From Bradyrhizobium sp. LMTR 3 (GTDB lineage: Bacteria; Pseudomonadota; Alphaproteobacteria; Rhizobiales; Xanthobacteraceae): a DNA stretch of 64,000 bases. The notes below the pieces were generated by a model that made no database searches, was not told the DNA's origin, and saw only the letters and a program-made list of their open reading frames with translations. Of the stretch, positions 6,964 through 58,678 are shown piece after piece. A program made the position numbers and the translations under genes. The stretch spans positions 1 to 64,000 of the forward strand of contig NZ_MAXC01000002.1 of the NCBI RefSeq assembly GCF_001693485.1, given 5' to 3'. Position 1 is the stretch's first letter. Every line of letters begins with the position of its first letter.

Positions 6964-7037
6964 GTTGGATCCTCCGTTGCAGCGACAAACACATATTCAG
7001 GCCCGGGTTGATCCCGGATCTGTCTTTTTCCGCCGTT

Positions 7038-7364: not shown

Positions 7365-7366
7365 GT

Positions 7367-8173
7367 CTACACCCTGCCCAGCGCAAAACCGCGCGCGATG
7401 TAGTTGCGGACGAACCAGATCACCAAGGCACCGGGGATGATGGTGAGCACGCCGGCCGCCGCCAGTAGTCCCCAATCCATGCCCGCGGCGGAGACCGTGC
7501 GGGTCATGATCGCCGAGATCGGCTTGGCGTTGACCGAAGTCAAGGTACGCGCCAGCAGCAATTCGACCCAGGAGAACATGAAGCAGAAGAACGCGGCGAC
7601 GCCGATGCCGCTCGCGATCAGCGGCACCAGGATCTTGACGAAGAAGCGCGGGAACGAATAGCCGTCGAGGAATGCGGTCTCGTCGATCTCGCGCGGCACG
7701 CCCGAGACGAAGCCTTCGAGAATCCACACCGCCAGCGGCACATTGAAGATGCAGTGCGCCAGCGCGACCGCCCATGGCGTATCGAACAGATTGATCGCCG
7801 AGTAGAGATTGAAGAACGGCAGCGCAAACACCGCGGCCGGCGCCATGCGGTTCGACAACAGCCAGAAGAACAGATGCTTGTCGCCGAGGAAGCGGTAGCG
7901 CGAGAAGCCGTAGGCGGCCGGCAGCGCTACCGCGATCGAGATCACGGTGTTGATGACCACGTATGTCAGCGAATTGATGTAGCCGGAATACCAGCTCTCA
8001 TCGGTGAAGATGCGCCTGTAGTTTTCCAGCGTCGGCTGGTGCGGCCACAGCGTCATCGTGGTGACGATCTCGGCATTGGTCTTGAAGCTCATGTTGACGA
8101 GCCAGTAGATCGGCAACAGCAGGAAGATCAAAAACAGCGAGATGATGAGGCGGCGGCCGGGAATCGAATGCAT
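7367..8173 (-). CDS. glpQ: Glycerol ABC transporter permease GlpQ
   Basis: MalG-type inner-membrane permease of 268 residues. It has an N-terminal segment IISLFLIFLLLPIYWLVNMSF, the periplasmic loop typical of the family (SLTYVVINTVISIAVALPAAYGFSRY), six membrane segments in all, and the EAA coupling loop at PREIDETAFLDGYSFPRFFVKILVPL, which contacts an ATPase subunit. The start at 8173 (MHSIPGRR) overlaps the glpP stop in a TGATG, so the two permeases are coupled and probably made 1:1. The longer open frame upstream to 8581 is glpP out of frame. Confidence 0.9.
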   Translation of the reverse strand: MHSIPGRRLIISLFLIFLLLPIYWLVNMSFKTNAEIVTTMTLWPHQPTLENYRRIFTDESWYSGYINSLTYVVINTVISIAVALPAAYGFSRYRFLGDKHLFFWLLSNRMAPAAVFALPFFNLYSAINLFDTPWAVALAHCIFNVPLAVWILEGFVSGVPREIDETAFLDGYSFPRFFVKILVPLIASGIGVAAFFCFMFSWVELLLARTLTSVNAKPISAIMTRTVSAAGMDWGLLAAAGVLTIIPGALVIWFVRNYIARGFALGRV

Positions 8174-9075
8174 CACGCGCCTCCCTGCTTGGCGGGGCGC
8201 TCGGCCCCGGCATTGGTCATGACGGTGTAGAACACCCAGCACACGATCAGGATGATCAAATTGTAGACGAGCGAGAGAGCGGCGGCCTTGCCGAGGTCGA
8301 ATTGACCGAGCGCGATCTTGACCAATTCGATCGAAACGAAGGTGGTCGAGTTGCCCGGACCGCCGCCGGTCACGACGAACGGCTCGGTGTAGATCATAAA
8401 ACTGTCCATGAAGCGCAGCAGCACGGCGATCAGCAGCACGCGGTTCATCTTCGGCAATTGGATCGCCTTGAACACCGCCCAGCGCGAGGCGCCATCGATC
8501 TGAGCCGCCTGGTAATACGCGTCCGGGATCGACTTCAGCCCGGCATAGCACAGCAGGGCCACGAGGCTGGTCCAGTGCCACACGTCCATCACGATGACGG
8601 TCGCCCAGGCATCGAACTCGTTGGAGACGTAATTATAGTCGAAGCCCAGGCTGTTGAGCGTATAGCCGAGCAGGCCGATATCGGGCCGGCCGAAAATCTG
8701 CCAGATCGTGCCGACCACGTTCCACGGAATGAGCAGCGGCAAAGCGAGGATCACAAGGCATACGGCAACCGTCCAGCCCTCGCGCGGCATCGACAGCGCC
8801 ACCACGATGCCGAGCGGCACCTCGATCGCAAGTATGATGGCCGAGAACAACAGATTGCGGCCGAGCGAGGCCAGAAAGCGTCCGCCGAGATCGGTCGAGG
8901 GATCGAGCAACTCCTTGAACCAGCCGACGCCGTTCCAGAAGAACTGGTTGTTGCCGAACGTGTCCTGCATCGAATAGTTCACGACCGTCATCAGCGGCAG
9001 AATCGCGGAGAACGCGACCACCGCGAATACCGGCAGCACCAGGAACCAGGCTTTCTGGTTGACGATCTTGTCCAT
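8173..9075 (-). CDS. glpP: Glycerol ABC transporter permease GlpP
   Basis: MalF/UgpA-type permease of 300 residues and six membrane segments. The first is at ~9-30 (WFLVLPVFAVVAFSAILPLM). The EAA loop is at SIPDAYYQAAQIDGASRWAVF followed by KAIQLPKMNRVLL, and the tail PFVVTGGGPGNSTTFVSIELV is typical of sugar and polyol permeases. It overlaps glpT upstream (TGATG at 9073-9077) and glpQ downstream in the same way. With GlpQ it should form the heterodimeric channel served by GlpS and GlpT. Confidence 0.92.
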   Translation of the reverse strand: MDKIVNQKAWFLVLPVFAVVAFSAILPLMTVVNYSMQDTFGNNQFFWNGVGWFKELLDPSTDLGGRFLASLGRNLLFSAIILAIEVPLGIVVALSMPREGWTVAVCLVILALPLLIPWNVVGTIWQIFGRPDIGLLGYTLNSLGFDYNYVSNEFDAWATVIVMDVWHWTSLVALLCYAGLKSIPDAYYQAAQIDGASRWAVFKAIQLPKMNRVLLIAVLLRFMDSFMIYTEPFVVTGGGPGNSTTFVSIELVKIALGQFDLGKAAALSLVYNLIILIVCWVFYTVMTNAGAERPAKQGGA

Positions 9076-10160
9076 CAGGCAACCCCCTCGACCAGACGGC
9101 TGTCGGCATAGACGTGAACATGCGCGGGATCGAACACCAGCCCGACCATGTTGTCGGGCACGGAGAATCCGGGCGGCACGCGCGCGGCAAACTTGGCGTC
9201 GCCGATGCGAACGCGAGCGAAACGGGCGCGACCAAGATCGTCGATCCGTTCGATCGTGGCCGATAACAGGCCCGACGCGGGAGCGGCGATATTGACGAAT
9301 TCCGGGCGCACGCCGACCTCGATCTTCGCACCCGCCGGCAGCACGCCGTAATTTCGATGGAGGCCGATGATGTGGCCGTCAATCTGGGCCTCATGCCCGC
9401 GCACGACAGCCGGCACGATGTTCATGCCGGGCGAGCCGATGAAGTAACCCACGAATGTATGCGCGGGCTTGTCAAACAGTTCGGCCGGCGTGCCGCTCTG
9501 CACCACGCGGCCGTCATGCATGACCACCACCGTATCGGCAAAAGTCAGCGCCTCGGTCTGGTCATGGGTGACGTAGATCATCGTGAGATCGAGCTCGCGA
9601 TGCAGCGCCTTCAACTTCGAGCGCAACTGCCACTTCAATTCAGGATCGATCACCGTCAGCGGCTCGTCGAATAGTACGGCGGCAACGTCGGAACGGACGA
9701 GGCCGCGGCCGAGCGAAATCTTCTGCTTGGCGTCCGCGGTCAGGCGCGTCGCCTTGCGGTCGAGATAGAACGTCAGATCCAGGAGATCGGCGATCTGCCT
9801 CACCCGCGCCTCGACCTCGGCCTTCGGCACGCCGCGGTTCTGCAGTGGGAATGCGAGGTTCTGCCCGACCGTCATCGTGTCGTAGATCACCGGAAACTGG
9901 AACACCTGCGCGATGTTGCGCTTCTGGGTTGACAGCGGCGTGATATCGGCGCCGTCGAACAGGATTTTTCCGCGCGACGGCGTGACGATGCCGGAGATCA
10001 GGTTGAGCAGCGTGGTCTTGCCGCAGCCGGAGGGGCCGAGCAGCGCGTAGGCCCCGCCCTGCCGCCAGGTCATGGTCACCGGCTTCAGCGCAAAGGATTC
10101 GGGCGCAGCGTCATTGCCGCCGTAGGAATGCGCGAGATCGACGAGGTCAATGCGTGCCAT
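9075..10160 (-). CDS. glpT: Glycerol ABC transporter ATPase GlpT, with degenerate signature motif
   Basis: Polyol-type ABC ATPase of 361 residues with a C-terminal MalK-like regulatory domain (about 235-361). Walker A is canonical (GPSGCGKTT, 42-50), the Q-loop is VFQFP, Walker B ends VLFDEP (E166) and the H-loop is intact (YVTHDQ, H199). The family signature LSGGQ, however, is replaced by TADAKQK at 141-147, before ISLGRGL. It can therefore bind and hydrolyse ATP in its own Walker A but offers a poor signature to its partner. It is coupled to glpP and lies 12 nt after glpS. The symbol denotes the rhizobial ABC subunit, not the E. coli GlpT antiporter. Confidence 0.92.
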   Translation of the reverse strand: MARIDLVDLAHSYGGNDAAPESFALKPVTMTWRQGGAYALLGPSGCGKTTLLNLISGIVTPSRGKILFDGADITPLSTQKRNIAQVFQFPVIYDTMTVGQNLAFPLQNRGVPKAEVEARVRQIADLLDLTFYLDRKATRLTADAKQKISLGRGLVRSDVAAVLFDEPLTVIDPELKWQLRSKLKALHRELDLTMIYVTHDQTEALTFADTVVVMHDGRVVQSGTPAELFDKPAHTFVGYFIGSPGMNIVPAVVRGHEAQIDGHIIGLHRNYGVLPAGAKIEVGVRPEFVNIAAPASGLLSATIERIDDLGRARFARVRIGDAKFAARVPPGFSVPDNMVGLVFDPAHVHVYADSRLVEGVA

Positions 10161-10172
10161 ATCGCATCTCCC

Positions 10173-11312
10173 TCACATGCTCTTGGCTTTTGATGCGTTT
10201 TCGGCATGCGAAACGCTAGGCATTTCGCTTGAAAACGCGATGGCTGGCGCTGCGACCAGGCGATCGGCGGCGTCGAACACGAAGACATTGTTGGGATCGA
10301 GCACGGCATCGAGCGTCTGGCCGGGCTCATATTCATGCACGCCCGGCAGCACCGCAACCCAGTTGGAGGCGTCGCGGTTGAGATGCACGAAACTTTCCGA
10401 GCCGGTGATCTCGGTCACGGTGACGGTGGCGTGAAACGCGTGGCGGCCGGCGATGCCGTTCGCCACTTCGAGCTGGTGGGCGCGGAAACCGACGCGATAG
10501 GGGCCGTCGGAAAGCTGCGCATAGAGCCCGGTGGCCGGCGCCTTGACGCCGCCGGCATAGGCGACCTGCCCGTTCTTCTTCTCGATGCCGACGATGTTGA
10601 GCGGCGGATCTGAGAATACCTGCGCGACGCGCAGCGTATCGGGACGGCGATAGACTTGCGATGTATTGCCGGCCTGAAGCACCTGGCCTTCCCACATGCA
10701 CACCGTGTTGCCGCCGAGCAGCAGCGCCTCCGAGGGCTCAGTCGTGGCATAGACGAAGATCGCACCGGACGCCTCGAAGATGCGCGGCAGTTCGGTGCGC
10801 AGCTCCTCGCGGAGCTTGTAATCAAGATTGGCGAGTGGCTCATCGAGCAGCACGAGGTCGGCGCCCTTGACCAGCGCACGCGCGATCGCGGTGCGCTGCT
10901 GCTGGCCGCCGGAAAGCTGCAGCGGCGTGCGCTTCAGATAGGGCTCGAGCCGCAAGAGCTTCGCGGCTTCCTGCACGCGGTGGTCGATCTCCTCGCGCGG
11001 CCGGCCCTGCACCCGCAAGGGCGAGGCGATGTTCTCGTACACCGTCAGTGAGGGATAGTTGATGAACTGCTGATAGACCATCGCAACCGAGCGCTGCCGC
11101 ACGTCGGCGCCGGTAACGTCGTTGCCGTCGACCAGCACGCGACCGGTTGACGGCTTGTCGAGACCGGCGAGCAGCCGCATGATCGAGGTCTTGCCCGACA
11201 ACGTCGGCCCGAGCAGCACGCTCAGCGTGCCGCGCTCCAGCGTCAGCGACACGTCGCGAATGGTCGCCATGCCATCCACGGTTCGCGTGACGTGTTCGAG
11301 CGTGACGCTCAT
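10173..11312 (-). CDS. glpS: Glycerol ABC transporter ATPase GlpS, with degenerate Walker A and H-loop
   Basis: Second ABC ATPase of the importer, 379 residues, with a C-terminal regulatory domain from ~240. The signature is perfect (LSGGQQQR, 133-140) and Walker B normal (LVLLDEP, E158). Walker A is atypical (GPTLSGKTS, 35-43), and the H-loop His is replaced by Thr (YATTEPSEA, T191, against YVTHDQTEA in GlpT). This is the mirror image of the GlpT defects. The last ~22 residues (AIAFSSEMPSVSHAENASKA and beyond) are encoded by a dispersed palindromic repeat at 10190-10238. The ATG overlaps the glpD stop (ATGA, 11309-11312), so the two are coupled. Confidence 0.92.
   Translation of the reverse strand: MSVTLEHVTRTVDGMATIRDVSLTLERGTLSVLLGPTLSGKTSIMRLLAGLDKPSTGRVLVDGNDVTGADVRQRSVAMVYQQFINYPSLTVYENIASPLRVQGRPREEIDHRVQEAAKLLRLEPYLKRTPLQLSGGQQQRTAIARALVKGADLVLLDEPLANLDYKLREELRTELPRIFEASGAIFVYATTEPSEALLLGGNTVCMWEGQVLQAGNTSQVYRRPDTLRVAQVFSDPPLNIVGIEKKNGQVAYAGGVKAPATGLYAQLSDGPYRVGFRAHQLEVANGIAGRHAFHATVTVTEITGSESFVHLNRDASNWVAVLPGVHEYEPGQTLDAVLDPNNVFVFDAADRLVAAPAIAFSSEMPSVSHAENASKAKSM
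10190..10238. repeat. Dispersed repeat copy inside the 3' end of glpS
   Basis: These 49 nt align without gaps to 44270-44318 (about 39 of 49 identical by hand). Both hold gcgttttc near one end and gaaaacgc at the other, a self-complementary layout. Here the element is in frame and encodes most of the C-terminal tail of GlpS. At 44270 it is intergenic. Confidence 0.75.
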
Positions 11313-12853
11313 GTCCGCCCTCCCGCTTCGCGCAAGGCACGTTCACCGGAGGCGCTGTTGGCCTTGATCCATTCGTCAAGCACGGCGACTTCATCGGCCG
11401 ACAGTTGCAAGCCGAGTTTAGACCTACGCCACACCACGTCTTCGGCGCTGCAAGCCCACTCGGTCGAAATCAGGTACCGGACCTCGCTTTCGGTCAAGGT
11501 AGCGCCAAACGCCTGGCCTAGATCGGCCAATGATTTCGCATTGCCGAGCAATTTTGTCGCACGCGTGCCATAGGCATGCGCGAGCCGGCCAGCATGCGCC
11601 GAGGTGAGGAACGGATACTTCCGCGTCAGTTCCGCCGTCAGCGCAGCGACTGCCGAAACATCCAGGTCGCCGCCGGGCAGCGGCGCCTTGCCGGTCCAGC
11701 CTTCTTTCGCTTTGTCGCTGCGCAAGTAGGGCGCGAGCCGCTCCAGCGCCTCTTCGGCGAGGCGCCTATAGGTCGTGATCTTGCCACCATAGATCGACAG
11801 CAGCGGCGCACCGCCGGGCGTATCGAGTTCGAACACGTAATCGCGGGTCGCGGCCCTGGCCTCGCTGGCGCCGTCATCATAGAGCGGGCGGACCCCGGAG
11901 TAGGTCCAGACCACGTCTGCGGGCAGCACCGGCTTTTTCAGGTACTCACTGGCGGAGGCGCAGAGATATTGAATCTCCTCGGGGCTGGCTTTCACCTTGG
12001 CCGGGTCGCCGTCGTAGTCGCGATCAGTGGTGCCGATCAGCGTAAAGTCGCCCTGGTAGGGGATGACGAAGATGATGCGGCCGTCGGCATTCTGGAACAT
12101 GTAGGCGCGGTCGTGCTCATATAGCTTGCGCACCACGATGTGTGAGCCCTGCACCAGCCGCACCTTTGCCCGCGCGTTGACGCCTGAGCCCGACGACAGC
12201 ACCTGCTCCACCCACGGACCGCCGGCATTGACCAGCGCGCGCGCCTGGATGGTGGTGCGCTCGCCGCTGACGGCCTTCTCGACGGTCACGTGCCAGATGC
12301 CGTCCACCTGCCTGATCTCGACCGCGCGCGAGCGGGTGTGAATTTCGGCGCCGCGATCGGCCGCATCCCGCGCCGTGAGCACGACCAGGCGCGCGTCATC
12401 GACGAAGCAGTCGGAATATTCGAAGCCTTTTCTGTAGCGGTTGGCGATCAAGGGTTTGCCCACCTCGTCATGGAGGAGATCGACCGAGCGCGTCGGCGGC
12501 AGGAGATGACGGCCGCCGATGTGGTCGTACAGGAACAACCCTAACCTGAGCAGCCAGGCCGGCCGCAAGCCAGCGTGGTGCGGCAAAACGAAACGCAAGG
12601 GACGGATGATGTGAGGCGCGATCTGCCAAAGGACTTCGCGCTCGATCAGCGCCTCGCGGACCAGGCGGAACTCGTAATATTCGAGATAGCGCAGCCCGCC
12701 GTGCACGAGTTTGGTCGACCAGGACGAGGTCCCGCTCGCCAAGTCATTCATTTCACAAAGGAAAACGGAATTGCCCCGGCCCGCCGCGTCGCGCGCGATG
12801 CCGCAGCCATTGATGCCGCCTCCGATAATGGCGAGGTCGAATATCCGATCCAA
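11309..12853 (-). CDS. glpD: Aerobic glycerol-3-phosphate dehydrogenase
   Basis: FAD enzyme at the inner membrane that oxidises sn-glycerol-3-phosphate to dihydroxyacetone phosphate and passes electrons to quinone. 514 residues, against 501 in E. coli. The Rossmann motif is at 10-16 (IIGGGINGCGIARDAAGRG), then SSWSTKLVHGGLRYLEYYEF, RLVQGSHIVV, the DAO core TLIGTTDRDYDGDP and VWTYSGVRPL, and a DAO_C helical domain from ~390. It leads the operon glpDSTPQUV, overlapping glpS by 4 nt. The upstream region holds repeated cgaaagc motifs that may bind GlpR. In related rhizobia glpR is next door; here it is 3 kb away. Confidence 0.96.
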   Translation of the reverse strand: MDRIFDLAIIGGGINGCGIARDAAGRGNSVFLCEMNDLASGTSSWSTKLVHGGLRYLEYYEFRLVREALIEREVLWQIAPHIIRPLRFVLPHHAGLRPAWLLRLGLFLYDHIGGRHLLPPTRSVDLLHDEVGKPLIANRYRKGFEYSDCFVDDARLVVLTARDAADRGAEIHTRSRAVEIRQVDGIWHVTVEKAVSGERTTIQARALVNAGGPWVEQVLSSGSGVNARAKVRLVQGSHIVVRKLYEHDRAYMFQNADGRIIFVIPYQGDFTLIGTTDRDYDGDPAKVKASPEEIQYLCASASEYLKKPVLPADVVWTYSGVRPLYDDGASEARAATRDYVFELDTPGGAPLLSIYGGKITTYRRLAEEALERLAPYLRSDKAKEGWTGKAPLPGGDLDVSAVAALTAELTRKYPFLTSAHAGRLAHAYGTRATKLLGNAKSLADLGQAFGATLTESEVRYLISTEWACSAEDVVWRRSKLGLQLSADEVAVLDEWIKANSASGERALREAGGRT

Positions 12854-48812: not shown

Positions 48813-50426
48813 CTACCGCGCATCCTCCAAAATCATGTCGGACGCCTTCTCTGCGATCATGATGGTTGGCGCGTTGGTATTGCCGGACATCAGATCAGGC
48901 ATGATCGAGGCATCGACCACGCGAAGGCCTTCGATGCCGCGCACGCGCAAGCGCTGGTCGACGACCGCGAGCGCGTCGCTGCCCATCCGGCAGGTCGAGG
49001 TCGGATGATAGACCGTGCTGCCGGTGCGGCGGCAGAAGTCCAGCAATTCGTCGTCACTCTGTACCTTCGAACCCGGATCGACTTCTGAGACCGCGTAAGC
49101 CTTCAGCGCGGGGGCTGCGAGGATCTTGCGCAGGATGCGGATGCCGTCGATGAAAGCGCGGCGATCGGTTTCGGTAGCGAGGTAATTGATGCGGATTTCC
49201 GGCGGCACCGAAGGGTCCGCGCTCCTGATACGCAGCGAACCGCGGCTCTCCGGGCGCAACTGGCAGACGGAAGCGGTGAAACCGGAAAGCGCGTGAAGTT
49301 TCTCGCCCATCTTGTCGGTCGAGAACGGCAGGAAGTGAATCTGGATGTCGGGCGACGCCAGCCGCGGGCTGGTCTTGAAGAAAGCGCCTGACGTGCCGGC
49401 CGCGATCGTCAGCGGCCCTTTGCGCAAGGCGGCGTACTGAATGCCCGCCATCATCTTCCGGATCGGGTTGTTGACGACATCGTTGAGCGTGCACTTTTGC
49501 GCACAGCGGGTGATCAGGCGGACCTGCATGTGGTCCTGCAGATCGTTGCCGACGCCCGGCGCATCGAGCACGATCTCGATGCCGTGCTGCTTCAACAGAT
49601 CCGCCGGGCCGACGCCCGAGAGCTGCAGTAGTTGCGGCGAATTGTATGCGCCGCTGGAGACCAGAATTTCCTTGCGCGCCCGTGCGGTCCGCACGCGGCC
49701 TTCCTGCTTGTATTCGATCGCCTTGGCGCGGCGGCCTTCGAACAGGATGCGCTGCGCCAGCGCGGAAGTCTCGACCCGCAGGTTAGGCCGCTTCCTGGCG
49801 GGACGAAGATACGAGAACGCCGTGCTGGCCCGGCGCCCACGCCGCGTCGTGGTCTGGAAAAATCCCGCGCCCTCCTGCGCGGCGCCGTTAAAATCGGGAT
49901 TGGTCGGAATGCCGGTCTCAGCCGCGGCGACGACAAACGCTTCCGACAGGGGATCGTGATGCCGCCAGTCGGACACCGGCAGCGGGCCGCCGGCGCCGTG
50001 ATATTTGTCCGCGCCGCGCTGCTGGTTTTCGGCCTTCTTGAAATAGGGCAGCACGTCGTCATAGCCCCAGCCGGCATTGCCGCGCTGCCGCCATCGATCG
50101 TAATCCTCGTGCTGGCCGCGCACATAGAGCAGGCCGTTGATGGAACTGGAGCCGCCGAGCACCTTTCCGCGCGGCTGGAACACCTGCCTCCCGTTCAATC
50201 CCGGTTCCGGCTCGGTCTGGTACATCCAGTTGACGGATTTTTCCTTGAACAGTTTGCCGTAGCCGAGCGGCACGTGGATCCAGAGATTGGTGTCCTTCGG
50301 CCCGGCCTCCAGCAACAGGACGGAGTGCTTGCCGTCGGCCGTCAATCGATTGGCGAGCACGCATCCGGCCGATCCGGCGCCGACGATGACGTAGTCGAAT
50401 TCGGAAGCTTCATTGTTCTTGTTCAT
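48813..50426 (-). CDS. GMC-family FAD oxidoreductase (choline dehydrogenase-like)
   Basis: 537 residues. N-terminal FAD motif FDYVIVGAGSAGCVLANRLT; the GMC-1 signature WMYQTEPEPGLNGRQVFQPR with GKVLGGSSSINGLLYVRGQH; GMC-2 SSGAYNSPQLLQLSGVGPAD; and the C-terminal HPTSTCRMG with the catalytic His in YHPTST and Asn in GNTNAPTIMIAEKASD. It oxidises an alcohol, with electrons to a quinone or other acceptor. It lies downstream of the MarR-hydratase pair on the same strand, so the substrate is probably an alcohol in the same catabolic route, not necessarily choline. Confidence 0.93.
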   Translation of the reverse strand: MNKNNEASEFDYVIVGAGSAGCVLANRLTADGKHSVLLLEAGPKDTNLWIHVPLGYGKLFKEKSVNWMYQTEPEPGLNGRQVFQPRGKVLGGSSSINGLLYVRGQHEDYDRWRQRGNAGWGYDDVLPYFKKAENQQRGADKYHGAGGPLPVSDWRHHDPLSEAFVVAAAETGIPTNPDFNGAAQEGAGFFQTTTRRGRRASTAFSYLRPARKRPNLRVETSALAQRILFEGRRAKAIEYKQEGRVRTARARKEILVSSGAYNSPQLLQLSGVGPADLLKQHGIEIVLDAPGVGNDLQDHMQVRLITRCAQKCTLNDVVNNPIRKMMAGIQYAALRKGPLTIAAGTSGAFFKTSPRLASPDIQIHFLPFSTDKMGEKLHALSGFTASVCQLRPESRGSLRIRSADPSVPPEIRINYLATETDRRAFIDGIRILRKILAAPALKAYAVSEVDPGSKVQSDDELLDFCRRTGSTVYHPTSTCRMGSDALAVVDQRLRVRGIEGLRVVDASIMPDLMSGNTNAPTIMIAEKASDMILEDAR

Positions 50427-50533
50427 TTGTTTCCCCCGCAGGCGGCCCAAAGAGGTAGCTGGGCCGCCACGGGCGGTCAATTGCCTCGCCGTCGCAGGCG
50501 GGGAAAAACGATCTTCAATGCAGCCGGCGCCGG

Positions 50534-51307
50534 CTAGCTTGCCAGTTTCAAAAAGTCCGGCGGCCGGCGCTCGGCAAACGCAGCGAACGCCTCACGCGCC
50601 TCCATCGTCTTCAGGCGAGCCGCGAACTGCTCGCTCTCGGCCTTGATCTGCGCCATCAGAAGTTCCGGATTGCGCATCAGCCGTTTGGTCGTGCTGACGG
50701 CGCCCGCCGGCTGTTTCGCCAACCGGGACGCGAAAGCCTTCGCTTCCGCATCGAGCTTGTCGAGCGGCACCACGCGGTTGGCAAGTCCCCAGGCGAATGC
50801 GGATTTGGCATCGACCGCCTCACCGAGCGCGAACATCTCGAAGGCGCGGGCATAGCCGATGCGGAGCGGCATCAGCAGGCTGGAGGCGGCTTCCGGCACC
50901 AACGCAAGGTTGACGAACGGCGTCGACAGTAGGGCATTCTCGGCCAGCACGACCAGATCGCAGTGCAAGAGCATCGTGGTGCCGATGCCGACGGCGCGCC
51001 CTTGAACGGCTGCGACCAGCGGGCGGCTCGAATGTGCAAGCGCCTGCAGGAAGCGGCCGACATGGCGCTCGCCCTGAAGTGTGCCGGTTGCAATGGCTGC
51101 AAACTCGCCGACGTCGTTGCCGGCGGTGAACATGTCGCCCTCGCCGCGGATCAGCAGCACGCGGACGGATGAATCCGTCTCGGCGGCTTCGATCGCGTCC
51201 GCAAGCGCGCCGTACATCGCATTCGTCAGCGCGTTCTTCTTGTCGGGGCGAGCCATCGTCAGGCTCAAAATCCCGTCGCTCTTCTCGATCTTGATATGCT
51301 CGGTCAT
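50534..51307 (-). CDS. Enoyl-CoA hydratase/isomerase family protein
   Basis: 257 residues, crotonase fold: ILSLTMARPDKKNALTNAMY, GDMFTAGNDVGEFA (oxyanion hole), RPLVAAVQGRAVGIGTTMLL and HCDLVVLAENALLSTPFVNL, ALVPEAASSLLMPLRIGYAR. One Glu sits at the ALVPEA position as in isomerase-type members; the other crotonase Glu is replaced by G-I-G-T context. The end (RRPPDFLKLAS) resembles feruloyl- and dodecenoyl-CoA group members, but no substrate can be set. The ATG overlaps the marR stop (ATGA), and an AGGAG site precedes it. Confidence 0.88.
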   Translation of the reverse strand: MTEHIKIEKSDGILSLTMARPDKKNALTNAMYGALADAIEAAETDSSVRVLLIRGEGDMFTAGNDVGEFAAIATGTLQGERHVGRFLQALAHSSRPLVAAVQGRAVGIGTTMLLHCDLVVLAENALLSTPFVNLALVPEAASSLLMPLRIGYARAFEMFALGEAVDAKSAFAWGLANRVVPLDKLDAEAKAFASRLAKQPAGAVSTTKRLMRNPELLMAQIKAESEQFAARLKTMEAREAFAAFAERRPPDFLKLAS

Positions 51308-51744
51308 TCGTCTTCTCCTTTGGGAAATCTGCTCTGCATGGTGGTAAGCCAGCGCGCAACGACATCGATCTCGGCGTCGGTAAACCCTTCCGTGAGCCGC
51401 GCGTTGACGTCGGCGAGCCCGGCTTTCGACTGCGCCATCGCCACGCGGCCGGCCGGCGTCAGCCAGAGACGCCACGCGCGCCCGTCATCCGGATCGGCCC
51501 GCCGCTCGATCAGGTTCGCCGCCGTCATCCGGTCCACCAATCCGGAGATCCCGGGTGGTCCAAGATCGAGCGCCGCACCCGCCTCGCCCATCAGGGCGCC
51601 GTCGCGCTGGCCCAGGACGAAGAGCAGGCCGGATTGTGCGGCGGTCACGCCGGTGTGCGGGGACCGCGCCGCCATCCAGCGCTGCAGCCGGCGCTGCGCG
51701 ACGTTGAGCAGGAACACGAGCCGGTGCTCGCGACGCGGACTCAT
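51304..51744 (-). CDS. MarR-family regulator
   Basis: 146 residues. Winged HTH: TAAQSGLLFVLGQRDGALMG, EAGAALDLGPPGISGLVDRM and the wing LIERRADPDDGRAWRLWLTP, AGR. Dimerisation helices are at both ends. It leads the set MarR-hydratase-GMC, overlapping the hydratase by 4 nt. The palindrome ttcgcatgcgaa at 51764-51775, 20 nt before its start, is the likely operator, so autoregulation is expected. The ligand is unknown, perhaps an aromatic or acyl-CoA intermediate as for many catabolic MarR proteins. Confidence 0.88.
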   Translation of the reverse strand: MSPRREHRLVFLLNVAQRRLQRWMAARSPHTGVTAAQSGLLFVLGQRDGALMGEAGAALDLGPPGISGLVDRMTAANLIERRADPDDGRAWRLWLTPAGRVAMAQSKAGLADVNARLTEGFTDAEIDVVARWLTTMQSRFPKGEDE

Positions 51745-51903: not shown

Positions 51904-51915
51904 AAAATCGATTTT
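51904..51915. promoter_or_regulatory. Perfect AT-rich palindrome upstream of the GntR gene
   Basis: aaaatcgatttt is a 12-bp perfect palindrome 40-51 nt before the proposed GntR start. A ttgaca hexamer lies upstream at 51885-51890, but no good -10 box follows at 16-18 nt. Candidate operator for the adjacent GntR protein. Confidence 0.45.
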
Positions 51916-51954
51916 CGATTGACGATCTCACCTACTCTCGCCAAGCTGCCCGCC

Positions 51955-52683
51955 ATGAGCAGTATCGGGTTGAGTTTTGGCGAACGCCTTGCCGACGAAC
52001 GGCCGCGAAGCCTTACCTCCGCCGTTCAAGAACGGCTGCGCGCGGATATTCTCTCGACCCGGCTGCTACCCGGCCAGAAGCTGCATATCGCCGGTCTCGC
52101 CAAGCAGTTTTCGGTCAGCCTCGCCGCGGTGCGCGAAGCGCTGTCGCGGCTGGTCGCGGACGGGTTGGTGCAGGCGTCCGACCAGCGCGGTTTTCGTGTC
52201 AGCCCGGTATCATCAGCCGACCTCAGGGACGTGACTCAGACTCGCGTCGATATCGAAGGTCTGGCGCTGCGCCGTTCGATCGAGCGTGGCGATGCGGCAT
52301 GGCTTGCCTCGGTCGAGAAGTCTTTTACGGCGCTCTGCGCCGTCCCCCACACCTATCCCGACGATCCTACCCATCACTACGAGGAGTGGGTGGTGCGGCA
52401 CCGCGTCTTCCACCGTACGCTGGTGAACGCCTGCGGTTCGCAATGGTTACTGAGCTTTCGCGACGTCCTGCACGAGCAGAGCGAGCGCTATCGAAGGCTT
52501 GCGATCCGGCGCAACACGGAACACACACGCGACGTCGAGGCCGAACACGCGGCAATCGTGCATGCCGTGCTCAAGCACGATGCCGACGCCGCAGTCGCGG
52601 CGCTCTCGAAGCATTTCATGACCACCATGCATCTCGTCGAGCTCGCTACGCCGAAAACGTTCGGGGATGGCGACACCGCCTGA
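51955..52683 (+). CDS. GntR-family (FCD) regulator of the ABC-transporter operon
   Basis: 242 residues. N-terminal GntR HTH: LTSAVQERLRADILSTRLLP, GQKLHIAGLAKQFSVSLAAV, REALSRLVADGLVQASDQRG, FRVSPVS. The FCD ligand domain follows, with VDIEGLALRRSIERGDAAWL, H-containing metal-ligand helices (VVRHRVFHRTLVNACGSQWL, EHAAIVHAVLKHDADAAVAA). FCD proteins bind carboxylates through a metal, so the inducer may be an organic acid. It stands 52 nt before the binding-protein gene and probably leads that operon. ATG 51955 is preferred; a TTG at 51919 is the alternative start. Confidence 0.9.
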   Translation: MSSIGLSFGERLADERPRSLTSAVQERLRADILSTRLLPGQKLHIAGLAKQFSVSLAAVREALSRLVADGLVQASDQRGFRVSPVSSADLRDVTQTRVDIEGLALRRSIERGDAAWLASVEKSFTALCAVPHTYPDDPTHHYEEWVVRHRVFHRTLVNACGSQWLLSFRDVLHEQSERYRRLAIRRNTEHTRDVEAEHAAIVHAVLKHDADAAVAALSKHFMTTMHLVELATPKTFGDGDTA

Positions 52684-52735
52684 TCGACCGTTCGAAGACC
52701 AAATCAAATCAAGAAAAGCAAAGGGAAACGTCACC

Positions 52736-53707
52736 ATGAGAATCACGCGACGCTACATATTGGGAACGATTGCGGCCGCCACAGTGCTTGGCACATCAGG
52801 CATGGCGCAAGCTGCCGATACCGTCCGCATCGGGCTTCCGACGAAAACCTACTGGCCCACGACGATCGCGGAAACCGCAGTGCGCCAAAAGCTGTTCGAG
52901 AAGGAAGGCATCACCGCTGAACTCACGATCTATCGCGGCGGCGCCGAGACCTTCGAGGCGATGGCGGCGGGCGCCGCCGACGTGATCCTCGACGCGACTT
53001 CGCTGGTATCGGCCGGGCGCAAGAAGGGCGTGAACTCCAAAGTGCTCGCGAGCGCCGCAACGGGCTATTACGGCTGGCAGTTGATGACGCTTTCGAAATC
53101 GACGGTCGGGGTGAAGGACCTGAACGGCAAGAAGGTCGCCATCACCTCCGCGGGCTCCGGCTCCGACCTGCTGGCGTTGTGGACCCAGCAGGACAAGAAG
53201 ATCGAATTCACCCGCGTTCCCGTCGGCGGCGGCGGCCTGGTGCCGAACCTACTTGCCGGGAACGTTGACGCGGCCGTCGTCTATTCGCCGCTGAGCTTCC
53301 AGATCTCAAAATCGGGCGAAGCGCGCACCATCCTTGACTTCTCCAAGGAAGTGCCGCCGAACCTCGCCGCCGGCTGGATCGCGCTTGACAAATACGTGCA
53401 GGACAAGCCGCAACTCGTACAGAAGACGCTGAACGCGCTCTATGGCGCACTGATGTACATGCGCGCCAACAAGGACGCCTCCGTCAAGCTGATCACCGAA
53501 CTCTATGAAATTCCTGCCGAGATCGCGGCGCTGGAATATGAGAACACGATCATGAAGCTGGAAACCGACGGCAGCATGGATGGGTCGAAGATTCCGGAAC
53601 AGCTCCAGCTCGCGCTCGACATGGCCAAGGCGGGCGGCATGAAGGACCTGGGGCCGGCGGCGGAAATTATCTCGACGCAGTTCAAGCCGGTTCCGACCAA
53701 GTTCTGA
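52736..53707 (+). CDS. ABC transporter substrate-binding protein (SsuA/NMT1 type)
   Basis: 323 residues. Signal peptide MRITRRYILGTIAAATVLGT, cut near AQA/AD. The mature fold is of the NMT1/SsuA/TauA group: VRIGLPTKTYWPTTIAETAV, FEKEGITAELTIYRGGAETF, AMAAGAADVILDATSLVSAG, VKDLNGKKVAITSAGSGSDL, AGNVDAAVVYSPLSFQ. The group takes up sulfonates, nitriles, pyrimidine precursors, phthalates and similar small organics, so the substrate is open. It is followed by permease, ATPase and a second permease, all in one operon. Confidence 0.9.
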   Translation: MRITRRYILGTIAAATVLGTSGMAQAADTVRIGLPTKTYWPTTIAETAVRQKLFEKEGITAELTIYRGGAETFEAMAAGAADVILDATSLVSAGRKKGVNSKVLASAATGYYGWQLMTLSKSTVGVKDLNGKKVAITSAGSGSDLLALWTQQDKKIEFTRVPVGGGGLVPNLLAGNVDAAVVYSPLSFQISKSGEARTILDFSKEVPPNLAAGWIALDKYVQDKPQLVQKTLNALYGALMYMRANKDASVKLITELYEIPAEIAALEYENTIMKLETDGSMDGSKIPEQLQLALDMAKAGGMKDLGPAAEIISTQFKPVPTKF

Positions 53708-53717
53708 GACAAGCGCG

Positions 53718-54473
53718 ATGCAAAGCGGGCTAGCGGTAAAGGCGGCGCGGATCGCCATTGTGGTGGCGCTGTTTGCGATATGGGAAATCTTGTCGCGAAC
53801 CGGCATCGTCAATCCGCGCCTGCTTCCCTCCGCCTCCGATACGCTGTCAACGCTTGGCGAGCTCTTGCAACGCGCGAGCGTGCGCAAGGATCTCGCGGTG
53901 ACCGCAACCGAGGTGGTGACCGCATTCGCCCTCGCCGTTCCCGTCGGCGCGCTGATCGGCTTCCTGATCGCGGAGAACCGCTATTTTGCCGAGGTGGCAA
54001 AGCCGCTGCTGTTCTTCGCCTTCAGCATTCCGAAGTCGATCTTCCTGCCGATGTTCATCCTGGTGTTCGGGGTCGGCTTTTCGCAGAAGGTGGGCTTCGG
54101 TTTCTTCTCGACGATCTTCATCGTGATCATGTCGACCACGACGGCGGTTGAGTCGGTCAAGGTTGAGCATTTGACGGTCGCCCGCTCCTATGGCGCGACA
54201 CCCGTTCAGACCGCGTTCCGCGTCTACCTGCCGAGCATGCTCCCCGTTCTGCTGGAAGCGCTGCGGATCTCGATGATCTTCAACCTCACCGGCGTCATTC
54301 TCGCCGAAATGTACGCCTCGCGCGACGGGATCGGGCACCAGATTGCGACTTGGGGCGAGAATTTCCAGATGAAGCAATTGCTGGCCGGCGTGGTGATGAT
54401 CGCCGCCATCGCAATTGCCTTCAATGAACTGGTCAGATGGGTGGAAACACGATGCAGCCATTGGCGAACATAA
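53718..54473 (+). CDS. ABC transporter permease 1 (SsuC/TauC type)
   Basis: 251 residues, six membrane segments, starting AARIAIVVALFAIWEILSRT and NPRLLPSASDTLSTLGELLQ, typical of nitrate/sulfonate/taurine permeases. The EAA loop that contacts the ATPase is VEHLTVARSYGATPVQTAFR followed by VYLPSMLPVLLEALR. The end overlaps the ATPase start by 22 nt. A second, different permease (55257-56057) follows the ATPase; most SsuC/TauC systems use a homodimer, so here a heterodimer is likely. Confidence 0.9.
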   Translation: MQSGLAVKAARIAIVVALFAIWEILSRTGIVNPRLLPSASDTLSTLGELLQRASVRKDLAVTATEVVTAFALAVPVGALIGFLIAENRYFAEVAKPLLFFAFSIPKSIFLPMFILVFGVGFSQKVGFGFFSTIFIVIMSTTTAVESVKVEHLTVARSYGATPVQTAFRVYLPSMLPVLLEALRISMIFNLTGVILAEMYASRDGIGHQIATWGENFQMKQLLAGVVMIAAIAIAFNELVRWVETRCSHWRT

Positions 54474-55249
54474 CCCCGCTGAAGCCGGCCGGCGCGATCG
54501 AAGTCCGCAATGTCGGGCAGATCTTCAAGACCACGACGCAGGACGTCGTCGCGCTGGAAGACGTTTCGCTCGACGTCAGGCCCGGCCGCTTCGTTGTGCT
54601 GGTCGGCCCGAGCGGTTGTGGCAAGTCGACGCTTTTGATGATGATGGCGGGTTTGCGCCAACAGACCTCCGGCACCATCACCATCAGCGGCGCGCCGATC
54701 CCCGAGCCCGACCCGAACCGGGTCGGCGTGGTGTTTCAGGAGGCCAGCCTTTTTCCCTGGCTGACGGCGGAGGAAAACGTCGAGTTTCCGCTGGCGCTGC
54801 GCGGCGTCACCAAGAGTGATCGACGCGCGCGAGCGCAGGACGCGCTGAAGCTCGTTGGACTTGACGGCTTCGGCAAGCGCCATCCGCACGAATTGTCGGG
54901 CGGCATGAAGCAGCGTGTCTCGATCGCGCGCGGCCTGGTGCAGGATCCGCCGGTGCTTCTGATGGACGAACCGTTCGCGGCGCTCGACGAACAGACCCGC
55001 ATGACCATGGGCGACGAGCTGCTGCGGATCTGGGCGGCGACCGGCAAGACGGTGGTATTCGTGACCCATAGCCTGACGGAAGCGGTCTACCTCGCCGACG
55101 AGGTGATCGTGATGTCGCCGCGCCCCGGCCGCATCGTCGATCATCTGCAGGTCCCGCTGCCCCGACCCCGCACCTATGAGATGCTGAGCGGCGACGCGTT
55201 CGGCAGTCTGCGCGACCGCATCTGGCGGCACATCCGCAAATCGGCGTGA
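54452..55249 (+). CDS. ABC transporter ATPase (SsuB/TauB type)
   Basis: 265 residues with all motifs intact: Walker A GPSGCGKST, Q-loop VVFQEASLFPW, signature LSGGMKQRVSIARGLV, Walker B VLLMDEPFAALDEQTR and H-loop VVFVTHSLTEAVYLADEVIV. It energises the importer made of the two flanking permeases. The start at 54452 (MQPLANITPL) is taken; an in-frame ATG at 54437 (MGGNT) is equally possible. Both overlap the preceding permease, so translation is coupled. Confidence 0.93.
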   Translation: MQPLANITPLKPAGAIEVRNVGQIFKTTTQDVVALEDVSLDVRPGRFVVLVGPSGCGKSTLLMMMAGLRQQTSGTITISGAPIPEPDPNRVGVVFQEASLFPWLTAEENVEFPLALRGVTKSDRRARAQDALKLVGLDGFGKRHPHELSGGMKQRVSIARGLVQDPPVLLMDEPFAALDEQTRMTMGDELLRIWAATGKTVVFVTHSLTEAVYLADEVIVMSPRPGRIVDHLQVPLPRPRTYEMLSGDAFGSLRDRIWRHIRKSA

Positions 55250-55256
55250 GGCTGGC

Positions 55257-56057
55257 ATGAGCGCGGCAACACTTCGCAGATTGATCGTGATCGGCCTGAT
55301 AGTGCTGTGGGAAATCCTGCCGCGTGCCGGCTTCATTCCGGAACTGTTTCTGCCGTCGCTGTCTTCCACGCTCGCAGCCGGATGGAACGAGGCGGGCGAA
55401 TACGGCCACGCCCTTGCCGTCACGCTCTACGAGGTCGCGATCTCGATGGCGTTCGCCTGCGGCGGCGGCATCCTGCTCGGCGCCATCGTCGGCAGCCTGC
55501 CGCGGCCGCGCATCCTGATCATGCCGATGGTCTCGAGTCTCTATGCGGTGCCGCTGGTCATCCTCTATCCCGTCTTCACGGTCTGGCTCGGCATCGGCTC
55601 GGAATCCAAGATCGCATTCGCTTCGATTTATGGTTTTCTGCCGACGATGCTGGCGACTGCCGCAGGCATCCAGACCATCGATCCGCAATTGCTGCTGGCC
55701 GCCCGCAGCATGGGCGCGACGCTGAGCCAGCGGCTAGTTCGCGTCATCATCCCGGCGGCGATCCCGACCGTGCTGTCGGGACTGCGCGTCGGTGGCGCGC
55801 TTGTGATCGTCGGTGTGGTGGTGTCGGAAATGCTGATCTCGTCGGCGGGCATCGGCTATCTGATCTCGCGCTACCGCACCATTCTCGATAGCCCGCATGT
55901 GTTCGCCGGCGTGTTGCTGGTGCTGGCGATGGCGATCGCCTTCAACGCCGCCATCAAATGGATCGAGCGCAAGGCCGCGATCTGGCAGACCGGCACACGC
56001 GCCGGGCAAGACTCCGCGGGCGAAGTCGCGCCGACTGCCCTGCAGCCTGCGACCTGA
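55257..56057 (+). CDS. ABC transporter permease 2 (SsuC/TauC type)
   Basis: 266 residues, six membrane segments: TLRRLIVIGLIVLWEILPRA, LYEVAISMAFACGGGILLGA, PMVSSLYAVPLVILYPVFTV, and the EAA loop IDPQLLLAARSMGATLSQRL, VRVIIPAAIPTVLSGLR. It differs clearly from permease 1 but is of the same family. A start 7 nt after the ATPase stop indicates one transcript. The polar C-terminal tail (GTRAGQDSAGEVAPTALQPA) is low-complexity. Confidence 0.9.
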   Translation: MSAATLRRLIVIGLIVLWEILPRAGFIPELFLPSLSSTLAAGWNEAGEYGHALAVTLYEVAISMAFACGGGILLGAIVGSLPRPRILIMPMVSSLYAVPLVILYPVFTVWLGIGSESKIAFASIYGFLPTMLATAAGIQTIDPQLLLAARSMGATLSQRLVRVIIPAAIPTVLSGLRVGGALVIVGVVVSEMLISSAGIGYLISRYRTILDSPHVFAGVLLVLAMAIAFNAAIKWIERKAAIWQTGTRAGQDSAGEVAPTALQPAT

Positions 56058-56063
56058 CGGAGT

Positions 56064-56735
56064 GTGAGCGTGTTCGACCTGACGCTGACATTCGACAATG
56101 GTCCCGAGCCCGGCGTCACGCCGCGCGTGCTCGATACCTTGCGCGAACGCGGTATCACGACGACATTCTTCGTGATCGGCGAAAAGCTTGGCGATGACGA
56201 GCGCCGCCGGCTGGCGGCGCGTGCGCATGAAGAAGGCCACTGGATCGGCAACCATACCTTTACGCACACCGTGCCGCTCGGGCAGCAACGCGATCCAAAC
56301 GCAGCACAAAGCGAGATCGGCCGGACGCAAGACGCAATCGGCGACCTCGCCCATGCAGAGCGCTGGTTCAGGCCGTTCGGCGGCGGCGGCAATCTCGATT
56401 CGCGGCTGTTGAAGCCCTCCGTGGTCGACTACCTCGTTCGCAACAGGCATGGCTGCGTACTCTGGAATGCGATCCCGCGCGACTGGGACGATCCCGATGG
56501 CTGGGTCGACCGAGCCCTCGACCTGTGCCGCTCGCAGCCGTGGAGCCTGATGGTGCTGCACGATCTGCCTGGCGGCGCCATGGATCACCTTGAGCGCTTT
56601 CTCGACCGAGCAGAGGAAGCCGGCGCGCGCTTCCACCAGGACTTTCCGCCCGACTGCGTCCCGCTCCGGTCGGGCAAGATCGTGCTGCCCATCCAGCCCT
56701 ACGTTTCCAACATCGAAGAGAGTGTCACAACATGA
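56064..56735 (+). CDS. NodB-fold polysaccharide deacetylase-like hydrolase
   Basis: 223 residues, GTG start. NodB motif 1 is TFDNGP (D11-N12) where most have TFDDGP; the base Asp is kept but the metal-ligand Asp is Asn. Motif 2 is complete (GNHTFTH, H64 and H68), motif 3 is RPFGGGGN and a late LMVLHD supplies the general acid His. Asn replacing the second Asp is known in the PdaA-type subgroup, so activity is possible. There is no signal peptide, hence a cytoplasmic small-molecule amidase is more likely than a cell-wall enzyme, as with allantoinase-type PuuE relatives. The stop overlaps the FAH start (ATGA). Confidence 0.85.
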   Translation: MSVFDLTLTFDNGPEPGVTPRVLDTLRERGITTTFFVIGEKLGDDERRRLAARAHEEGHWIGNHTFTHTVPLGQQRDPNAAQSEIGRTQDAIGDLAHAERWFRPFGGGGNLDSRLLKPSVVDYLVRNRHGCVLWNAIPRDWDDPDGWVDRALDLCRSQPWSLMVLHDLPGGAMDHLERFLDRAEEAGARFHQDFPPDCVPLRSGKIVLPIQPYVSNIEESVTT

Positions 56736-57601
56736 GGATCGCGAGTTTCAAGGCAGGTCAAACGGCAACCTACGGCCTGGTCACGAACGCAGGCATTGTC
56801 GACGCCGGAAAACGGCTCAAGGCTTATCCAACCCTGAAGTCGCTGCTCGCCAAGGGATTGCTCGACGAACTGAAAGCGCTGCAGGGTGAGCGTCCCGATT
56901 ACGCATTGGCCGAAATCGAGCTGCTGCCGACCGTGCCCGACCCGGACAAGATCTTCTGCATCGGCGTCAACTACGCCACGCACCTTGCCGAAAGCGGCCA
57001 TCCCACGCCGCCGCACCCGATGATCTTCACCCGTTTCGCCAACAGCCAGGTCGGCGGCGGCCAGCCGATGATCCGGCCGCTGGAATCCGAACGTTTCGAC
57101 TTTGAGGGCGAGATGGCCGTGATCATCGGCAAGGCAGGCCGCCGGATTTCGCGGGAAGAGGCGCTGGCGCATGTTGCGGGCTATGCGTGCTACAATGACG
57201 GCAGCATCCGCGACTGGCAGCGCCACACCTCGCAGTTCGCGCCGGGAAAGAATTTTGTCGGCACCGGCGCATTCGGACCGTGGATGGTCACCACGGACGA
57301 AATCCCCGATATCAGCAAGCAGACCATTGCGACCCGCCTCAACGGCGTTGAAGTGCAGGCCGCGCCGATCTCTGACCTCGTGTTCGATGTCCCTGCACTG
57401 ATCGCCTACTGCTCGACCTTCACCGAGCTTGTGCCCGGCGACGTCATCGTCACCGGCACCACCGGCGGCGTCGGCGCCTACCGCACGCCGCCGCTGTGGA
57501 TGAAGGATGGCGACGTGGTCGAGGTCGAGGTGTCCGGCATCGGTGTGCTGCACAATCCTGTGAAGGACGAGGTTGCGGCGGCTGCGACACGCGCGGCTTG
57601 A
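56732..57601 (+). CDS. Fumarylacetoacetate hydrolase family protein
   Basis: 289 residues. The N-terminal ~70 residues are the small FAH_N-like part; the C-terminal domain has IFCIGVNYATHLAESGHPTP, the metal-binding ERFDFEGEMAVIIGKAGRRI, AGYACYNDGSIRDWQRHTSQ, FAPGKNFVGTGAFGPWMVTT, ATRLNGVEVQAAPISDLVFD, and LVPGDVIVTGTTGGVGAYR. The family cleaves C-C bonds of diketo acids, hydrates enols or decarboxylates oxaloacetate-like acids, using Mg or Mn. In an operon with an importer and an amidase, a late step of ring or ketoacid breakdown is plausible. Coupled to the deacetylase gene. Confidence 0.92.
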   Translation: MRIASFKAGQTATYGLVTNAGIVDAGKRLKAYPTLKSLLAKGLLDELKALQGERPDYALAEIELLPTVPDPDKIFCIGVNYATHLAESGHPTPPHPMIFTRFANSQVGGGQPMIRPLESERFDFEGEMAVIIGKAGRRISREEALAHVAGYACYNDGSIRDWQRHTSQFAPGKNFVGTGAFGPWMVTTDEIPDISKQTIATRLNGVEVQAAPISDLVFDVPALIAYCSTFTELVPGDVIVTGTTGGVGAYRTPPLWMKDGDVVEVEVSGIGVLHNPVKDEVAAAATRAA

Positions 57602-57637
57602 TATGAGAGGAACAACAATAAGAGCAAGGAGATACTG

Positions 57638-58678
57638 ATGAACCTGCCGAAACATCTTCTGCCGACCACTGTCGTCGGCAGTTACCCGCAGCCGGAATGG
57701 CTGGTCGATCGCGCGATGCTGTCAAAGGTGGTGCCGCGCACACGCCTTCACGCGATGTGGCGGCTGCCTGCGGAGCACCTGGAAGAAGCGCAGGACGACG
57801 CCACCATCGTTGCGATCAGGGACATGGAGCGCGCCGGCATCGACATCGTGACCGACGGCGAAATCCGCCGCGAGAGCTATTCCAATCGCTTCGCCACAGC
57901 GCTTGAAGGCATCGATGACGAGAATCCGGCGATGATCACCTCGCGTAGCGGACACGAAACGCCGGTGCCGCGCGTGGTCGGCCCGGTAAAACGCCGTGGC
58001 CCGGTCGAGCTGCACGACATGGAATTTCTGCGCCAGAATACCGATCGCGCGGCCAAGATCACCCTGCCCGGCCCGTTCACGATGAGCCAGCAGGCGAAGA
58101 ACGAGTACTACAAGGACGATGAAGAGCTGGCGATGGCATTTGCCGAAGCCGTCAACGCGGAAGCGCTCGATTTGCAAAAAGCCGGCGCTGACGTGATCCA
58201 GCTCGACGAGCCCTGGGTGCGCAACAACCCGGACCTTGCCCGCCGCTACGCCGTCAAGGCGATCAACCGCGCCCTGCAAGGCATCACCGTGCCGACCGTG
58301 GTGCATCTGTGCTTCGGCTATGCCGCGGTCGTCCCCGGCTCGACCAAGCCGGCCGGCTATTCCTTCCTCGCTGAGCTCGCCGACACCAGTGCCGAGCAGA
58401 TTTCGATCGAGGCGGCGCAGCCGAAGCTCGATCTCGGCGTGCTCAAGGATTTATCGTCGAAGAAGATCATGCTCGGCGTACTCGACCTCGGCAATCCCGA
58501 GATCGAATCTGACGGTGTGGTGGCCGGCCGCATCCGCAACGGGCTGAAGCATGTCGCCGCCGACCGGCTGGTCATCGCGCCCGATTGCGGCATGAAATAC
58601 ATGCCGCGGCATGTCGCGTTCGGAAAACTGAAGGCGATGTGCGACGCGGCAGCAACGGTGCGCAAGGAGATCAGCTAG
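57638..58678 (+). CDS. MetE C-terminal-domain-like protein (zinc methyltransferase fold)
   Basis: 346 residues, single TIM-barrel domain of the cobalamin-independent methionine synthase C-terminal type: TTVVGSYPQPEWLVDRAMLS, DGEIRRESYSNRFATALEGI, KITLPGPFTMSQQAKNEYYK, AGADVIQLDEPWVRNNPDLA, VHLCFGYAAV and APDCGMKYMPRHVAFGKLKA. Zinc ligands H and C (HLCFG), a Glu and the late C (DCGMKY) are present. It has no N-terminal MetE half, and the homocysteine/folate role is doubtful. Such proteins occur in catabolic operons, where demethylation or C-S bond chemistry is possible. Last plus-strand gene of the operon. Confidence 0.88.
   Translation: MNLPKHLLPTTVVGSYPQPEWLVDRAMLSKVVPRTRLHAMWRLPAEHLEEAQDDATIVAIRDMERAGIDIVTDGEIRRESYSNRFATALEGIDDENPAMITSRSGHETPVPRVVGPVKRRGPVELHDMEFLRQNTDRAAKITLPGPFTMSQQAKNEYYKDDEELAMAFAEAVNAEALDLQKAGADVIQLDEPWVRNNPDLARRYAVKAINRALQGITVPTVVHLCFGYAAVVPGSTKPAGYSFLAELADTSAEQISIEAAQPKLDLGVLKDLSSKKIMLGVLDLGNPEIESDGVVAGRIRNGLKHVAADRLVIAPDCGMKYMPRHVAFGKLKAMCDAAATVRKEIS

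Follow-up and report, generated by a model that had tools for sequence, protein, structure and literature searches.

A conserved transport operon of Bradyrhizobium with a putative dedicated operator and a stand-alone methionine synthase relative

What is the role of eight consecutive genes in Bradyrhizobium sp. LMTR 3 that begin with a regulator and an importer and end with a relative of the catalytic domain of methionine synthase? These co-directional genes span 51955-58678 on the forward strand of the window, which is the whole stretch of 64,000 nucleotides (nt) analysed here (contig NZ_MAXC01000002.1, positions 1 to 64,000; genome of 7.83 Mb). They encode a GntR-FCD regulator, a binding protein, permease, ATPase and second permease of an ATP-binding cassette (ABC) importer, a NodB-fold hydrolase (NodB), a fumarylacetoacetate hydrolase (FAH) family enzyme and a MetE-like protein. 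The original prediction had named all eight families and placed the genes less than 60 nt apart or overlapping; the families were confirmed, and the gaps are 52, 10, −22, 7, 6, −4 and 36 nt. Our answer, which we hold tentatively and rate a little short of an even chance, is that the set is an inducible uptake and catabolic operon controlled by the GntR-FCD protein, in which the core methionine synthase relative would move a methyl group of the substrate to homocysteine.

A search for the same gene order elsewhere, proposed together with the original prediction, shows that all eight genes recur in identical order in each of the 15 loci that were read gene by gene (the window, L034, L036-L042 and L059-L064). 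Because the same genes are consecutive in all 15 loci, and because the overlap between the first permease gene and the ATPase gene is −22 nt in every one of them, the order exceeds what chance would produce. The remaining gaps mostly differ by some nucleotides, two of them standing out at 46 nt (L039) and 108 nt (L064), and an additional complete copy is present in genome G143 (L200). This spacing gives no support to the objection, raised earlier as possible, that the last three genes are transcribed separately: in the 15 loci the gaps measure at most 13 nt into NodB, at most 3 nt into FAH and 14-48 nt into the MetE-like gene. Searches of the open-licence literature found no paper on the set or its relatives and no description of the pathway, in keeping with the earlier statement that no known pathway has exactly these genes.

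The conserved unit also appears to carry its own regulatory site. A 17-nt sequence, AAAATCGATTTTCGATT, holding the perfect palindrome AAAATCGATTTT, is invariant in all 15 full-operon loci, where the flanking DNA has diverged, and starts 51-57 nt upstream of the GntR start. The genome of LMTR 3 contains one exact copy, plus one site with two mismatches at C19. With up to one mismatch allowed, 63 copies are found in 60 of the 142 genomes of the genus, against none for a reversed control pattern. Because 59 of the 63 copies lie upstream of a MetE-like gene, 58 of them at about 5.7 kb (5.6-5.82 kb) and the copy in G137 at 1,584 nt, we take the sequence to be the putative dedicated operator of one regulatory unit. 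The other four copies, inspected by eye, adjoin an acetolactate-synthase-like gene (L197, L198), repeat-rich genes (L195) or no called gene (L196). Conversely, 75 MetE-like loci at 75% identity or more were found in 146 genomes searched, and in 59 of them the contig also carries the site upstream of the gene. A strand match was not demanded in this count, and the site is printed on the opposite strand in G064 and G113. Among the 16 loci that lack it, those of G143 and G145 fell outside the 142 genomes searched for the site, and the complete copy in G143 carries a 15-nt core. A regulon search through the site copies in the 142 genus genomes and in the LMTR 3 genome yielded no further pathway genes. 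In G137 (L205, near 7101-7146) the GntR and importer genes are missing, the site stands directly upstream of a NodB gene that is matched only from residue 31 on, and the FAH and MetE-like genes are kept.

Table 1. Features of the operon, with positions in the window.
Feature	Position	Strand	Basis
Putative operator AAAATCGATTTTCGATT, 17 nt, holding perfect palindrome AAAATCGATTTT	51904..51920	+	Conservation
GntR-FCD transcription regulator	51955..52683	+	Pfam GntR 65.8 bits, FCD 73.5 bits
Periplasmic binding protein, NMT1/SsuA-like	52736..53707	+	Pfam NMT1 54.2 bits; SsuA_fam 84.6 bits, under cut-off 163.5
ABC permease 1	53718..54473	+	BPD_transp_1 79.2 bits
ABC ATPase	54452..55249	+	ABC_tran 133.2 bits
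ABC permease 2	55257..56057	+	BPD_transp_1 84.7 bits
NodB-fold (carbohydrate esterase family 4 [CE4]-like) hydrolase, GTG start	56064..56735	+	Polysacc_deac_1 76.3 bits; model predicted local distance difference test (pLDDT) 95.9
FAH family enzyme	56732..57601	+	FAA_hydrolase 216.6 bits
Stand-alone MetE C-domain ("core methionine synthase") relative	57638..58678	+	Meth_synt_2 137 bits; 3rpd closest solved structure

The last enzyme of the operon, originally called a MetE-C-like zinc protein, can be described more closely as a stand-alone Meth_synt_2 domain of 346 amino acids that lacks the N-terminal folate domain. Its closest solved structure is 3rpd (198.3 bits), which is named as MesD by Price et al. 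2021 (PMC7857596). In an alignment of 37 rows, each of the 35 rows other than full MetE keeps the zinc residues H641, C643, E665 and C726 and the homocysteine residues S433, E484 and D599 (residue list and E. coli numbering from PMC7857596), and each has a tyrosine that by chain numbering probably corresponds to MesD Tyr226. The two MetE C-terminal rows from the LMTR 3 genome show a histidine at C643, which we take to be an alignment slip. With the catalytic domain alone and the zinc and homocysteine residues kept, the MetE-like protein has the form of a core methionine synthase.

Identity with the MesD/MesX system was nevertheless rejected. The protein shares with MesD the stand-alone MetE catalytic domain and the same zinc and homocysteine residues, and the hosts of MesD are aerobic (PMC7857596), but it scores 255.5 bits on PRK09121, an equivalog that we read as standing for MesD, against an NCBIfam cut-off of 392; relatives in L050, L053, L160 and L162 score 243-274 bits. 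In a tree, a branch 2.97 changes per column long separates the MesD pair (100/100 support); it is drawn inside an open fork where long branches meet, so that its exact placement is unsure. Moreover, the protein described here sits in catabolic operons, and a model search for MesX (PF08908) found none in the 142 genus genomes, LMTR 3 included; the search itself works, since the same model matches in 1 of 142 genomes of the class (G647). Two other proteins resemble it as described. Core-MetE/MesB (Deobald et al. 2020, PMC7005905) also lacks the folate domain and has the minimal MetE form, whereas the host here has MetH. The Mes-like PGA1_c27430 of Phaeobacter inhibens (PMC12366255) is likewise an orphan core-MetE-like protein of an aerobic bacterium, although no operon is described for it in the excerpts of that paper.

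Other relatives of this enzyme are present in the genus. A second stand-alone methionine synthase at L043:7802-8821 (C44:154807-155817 in the LMTR 3 genome) passes PRK09121 at 581.8 bits, and thus the MesD-type cut-off, though no MesX was found in the genus. Many genus genomes list a relative with 35-38% identity to the MetE-like protein of the window.

The NodB-fold protein had been predicted to be an amidase, and the fold assignment stands. Its model matches the structure of PgdA (2c1g; Z 23.2, root-mean-square deviation 2.6 over 187 residues, about 25% identity), a score that places it within the CE4 fold, while the allantoinase PuuE ranks low in the list (Z 14.3). The usual CE4 motif is FDDGP, and PdaA is an exception that has asparagine at the second acidic position. 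Here the motif is FDNGP, with DNGP in all 24 aligned relatives, which also all keep both metal histidines and the later D and HD. These residues would fit a protein that actively hydrolyses N-acyl or amide bonds. Compared with the CE4 polysaccharide deacetylases PgdA, PdaA and NodB, the protein is alike in fold, in its HxxxH histidines and in the position of the catalytic aspartate, and differs in carrying DNGP for DDGP, in its low identity and in belonging to an operon with an importer. Its partner is placed in the FAH superfamily by a score that compares with a cut-off of 23.9 bits (Table 1).

The importer is less informative about what is carried. Its binding protein falls outside SsuA_fam (Table 1), and the structure model of this protein is poor (mean pLDDT 46.1). 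Taurine, sulfonate, nitrate and other named importers were rejected as identities because all NCBIfam matches are below their cut-offs, and no substrate follows from them. The binding protein, permease and ATPase belong to the same superfamily as those of TauABC and SsuABC, but in addition to the low scores there are two permeases, and the operon has no sulfonate monooxygenase. Of the earlier proposal that a small compound is taken up and then catabolised, one part is supported: the genes look like a single regulated unit for uptake and catabolism, equipped with a NodB-fold hydrolase, a member of the FAH family and a zinc enzyme for methyl or thiol transfer. A specifically N- or S-containing substrate finds no support, since the SsuA-type label is weak and some relatives of the enzymes adjoin aromatic ring-cleavage dioxygenases.

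In the mechanism that we favour, the binding protein, the two permeases and the ATPase would import a small compound that is probably methylated and also acylated or amide-bearing. The NodB-fold enzyme, judged by its fold and conserved H/H/D, may then strip an acyl group or open an amide, and the FAH-family enzyme, as its family suggests, would hydrolyse a carbon-carbon bond of the resulting 2-oxo acid skeleton or decarboxylate it. The MetE-like enzyme, as its residues support, would activate homocysteine as a zinc thiolate and could then be methylated at the expense of what is imported, or of a product of it, so that homocysteine becomes methionine. Because some genomes keep the importer and the MetE-like gene without NodB and FAH, the methyl donor may be the very compound that is imported, and because the gene context is partly aromatic, methoxy or N-acyl aromatics are plausible substrates. 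The regulator is predicted to bind the 17-nt site, itself recognized by conservation, and would probably be relieved by substrate or product.

A further proposal, possible if on balance doubtful, is that the MetE-like protein represents another, as yet unnamed, family of methionine synthases of aerobes that need neither cobalamin nor folate. Such enzymes would transfer methyl groups straight from catabolites, either imported or produced by ring cleavage, onto homocysteine, and methoxylated, N-acylated aromatics are one example of such catabolites. If this is true, nutrient demethylation and methionine synthesis would be a single step. Four core methionine synthase families have been described, with the methyl donor of MesD left open in the excerpts of PMC7857596, and the role and methyl source of stand-alone MetE relatives in aerobes are likewise left open in the excerpted papers up to 2025 (PMC7857596, PMC12366255, PMC12478193). 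The operon makes that question testable, because the MetE-like gene is accompanied there by a dedicated importer, by two partner enzymes and by a regulator that has a single conserved site.

Outside the genus, a minority of the loci with relatives of the MetE-like gene have aromatic ring-cleavage dioxygenases nearby. Two Roseomonas-type plasmids, of Roseomonas haemaphysalidis and Pseudoroseomonas cervicalis, carry consecutive genes for FAH, NodB, a TctC-type protein, an intradiol dioxygenase (catechol 1,2-dioxygenase kind), an importer of the branched-chain type, an NAD(P) oxidoreductase, an NTF2 protein and the MetE-like protein; a GntR gene points away from this cluster. On pUSP2 of Aminobacter MSH1, the MetE-like gene accompanies a tripartite ATP-independent periplasmic (TRAP) importer, a hydrolase, a citryl-coenzyme A (CoA) lyase, CaiB and an extradiol dioxygenase. 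Neighbours within 6 kb of the MetE-like gene were counted in 80 genome-collection loci (the best of at least 593 relatives, some on short contigs, the shortest stretch being 3.6 kb), in 13 loci from the order and in only 20 control regions, 15 of them from the genus of the window. Ring-cleavage dioxygenase relatives occur in 14 of the 80, 7 of the 13 and none of the 20. Three of the five queries were drawn from tested loci (L122, L080 and L046); excluding these loci leaves 12 and 6, and using only the two outside plasmid queries gives 12/80, 5/13 and 0/20. Plasmid queries gave 18/80, 3/13 and 0/20 for the CaiB CoA-transferase and 14/80, 3/13 and 0/20 for the citryl-CoA-lyase-like protein. FAH is near the MetE-like gene in 0/80, 4/13 and 1/20, and NodB in 0/80, 3/13 and 0/20, so the link with these two enzymes is limited to part of the clade. 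Thus, aromatic surroundings are enriched within the MetE clade without being general, and NodB and FAH mark a subset. Six of 36 genus loci, and none of 15 controls, have Rieske oxygenase genes near the MetE-like gene. These genes are vanillate-demethylase-like by eye and below the family cut-offs, and the link is weak because three of the six positive loci were fetched as the 75% group.

The dioxygenase, CoA-transferase and citryl-CoA-lyase counts, together with the Aminobacter cluster, speak for an alternative in which the operon is an accessory to aromatic catabolism: FAH and NodB would handle ring-cleavage products of an aromatic or heteroaromatic compound, and the MetE-like protein would not be a methyltransferase but would depend on a thiol to form adducts, isomerise or cleave thioethers. 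We regard this as unlikely, although it is the alternative that survives best. The full conservation of the homocysteine-binding S, E and D points instead to an amino-acid thiol and to methyl chemistry, the operon of the window has no dioxygenase, 66 of the 80 loci show none either, and the controls are few and mostly from one genus.

It is quite unlikely that the MetE-like protein is a backup core methionine synthase that draws on a general methyl donor of the cell, in the manner of MesD with MesX, and simply accompanies the transport operon. The MesD structure as closest solved relative, the C44 protein above the MesD-type cut-off and the persistence of the MetE-like gene alone in some genomes would all agree with such a role. 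However, MesX was not found in the genus, although its model matches elsewhere, and the gene is accessory in the 146 genomes and stands mostly under a dedicated site. In addition, LMTR 3 has MetH as well as two long genes of the MetE type, whose open frames of 842 and 825 amino acids we take to encode full-length MetE; since these cover the methionine supply, a plain biosynthetic role for the MetE-like protein is unnecessary.

The joint occurrence of the enzymes was also examined across wider taxa. Among 397 genomes of the order, the MetE-like protein is found in 20 (E ≤ 1e-80), NodB in 13 (E ≤ 1e-30) and both in 12 (Fisher p 6e-17, and about 3e-9 outside the genus, uncorrected for relatedness); the same 397 genomes are assumed for the two counts, as handles and totals agree. 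In 22 NodB loci read outside the genus (7 from the order search, 11 from the class and 4 on plasmids), FAH lies within about 2.5 kb of NodB in 10 (L047, L048, L148, L150, L151, L156, L158, L160, L161 and L164) and the MetE-like gene within 10 kb in 6 (L047, L048, L053, L057, L160 and L161). L057, from another family, holds a distant importer-NodB-MetE operon at 49-63% identity. This operon, the joint occurrence of NodB and the MetE-like protein and the clusters on the two Roseomonas-type plasmids speak for the operon that we favour. It is very unlikely that the importer, the NodB-FAH pair and the MetE-like gene are three modules joined by location only, as L030, L035 and L201 (importer and MetE only), the loci with MetE alone, and L148, L150, L151, L156 and L158 (NodB and FAH, with no MetE in the stretch read) might suggest, because the 17-nt site is shared, the spacing is constant, and the three enzymes recur close together in L047, L048, L160 and L161, the last two with a different importer.

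Several observations weigh against the uptake and methyl-transfer operon that we favour, particularly as a strict unit. L035 and L201 have the importer and the MetE-like gene without NodB and FAH, as does L203 within the reach of its contig; in L030 importer and MetE-like gene are neighbours but convergent, again without the other two. The MetE-like gene persists without importer, NodB or FAH in L023-L025, L029, L031-L033, L058, L194, L199, L202 and L204, and because it is kept alone in these genomes it does not depend on the other members. It looks to be the most retained member of the operon, in a search that was biased toward its retention by locating loci through it. Only 4 of the 11 NodB-positive class genomes outside the order have a MetE-like protein of this type (at least 56% identity), against 1 of 16 chosen NodB-negative genomes (class, order and family), and the best 80 of the relatives have neither NodB nor FAH within 6 kb. 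The substrate and methyl donor are inferred, with no candidate singled out. Finally, a P. inhibens mutant deleted for its core-MetE-like gene kept the tested dimethylsulfoniopropionate effect (PMC12366255, in excerpt), and the excerpts of PMC12478193 call it questionable what function these homologues have in marine bacteria that are aerobic.

Some arrangements around the MetE-like gene vary. A tandem pair of MetE-like genes occurs in L111, L117, L136 and L139, as though one of the two paralogues acted on another substrate. Genes of a different MetE-like family (about 375 amino acids) lie near the MetE-like gene in six loci, in five of them within 1.5 kb (for example L087:11026-12165 and L110:11023-12144).

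In the window, a convergent SnoaL-like gene overlaps the 3′ end of the MetE-like gene by 4 nt; by BLAST it is unrelated to the NTF2-type gene beside the MetE-like gene in the Roseomonas cluster. On the other side, genes for a MarR regulator, an enoyl-CoA hydratase and a GMC oxidoreductase adjoin the operon (48813-51744, reverse strand). The same three genes are found near the MetE-like gene in several genomes of the genus, even without the rest of the operon: they are directly beside it in L199 and about 7 kb off in L058 and L194. At 5167-12853 on its reverse strand, the window also holds another importer system, recognized by eye and made up of two ATPases, two permeases and a binding protein of large size; its first gene resembles a flavin adenine dinucleotide-dependent glycerol-3-phosphate dehydrogenase.

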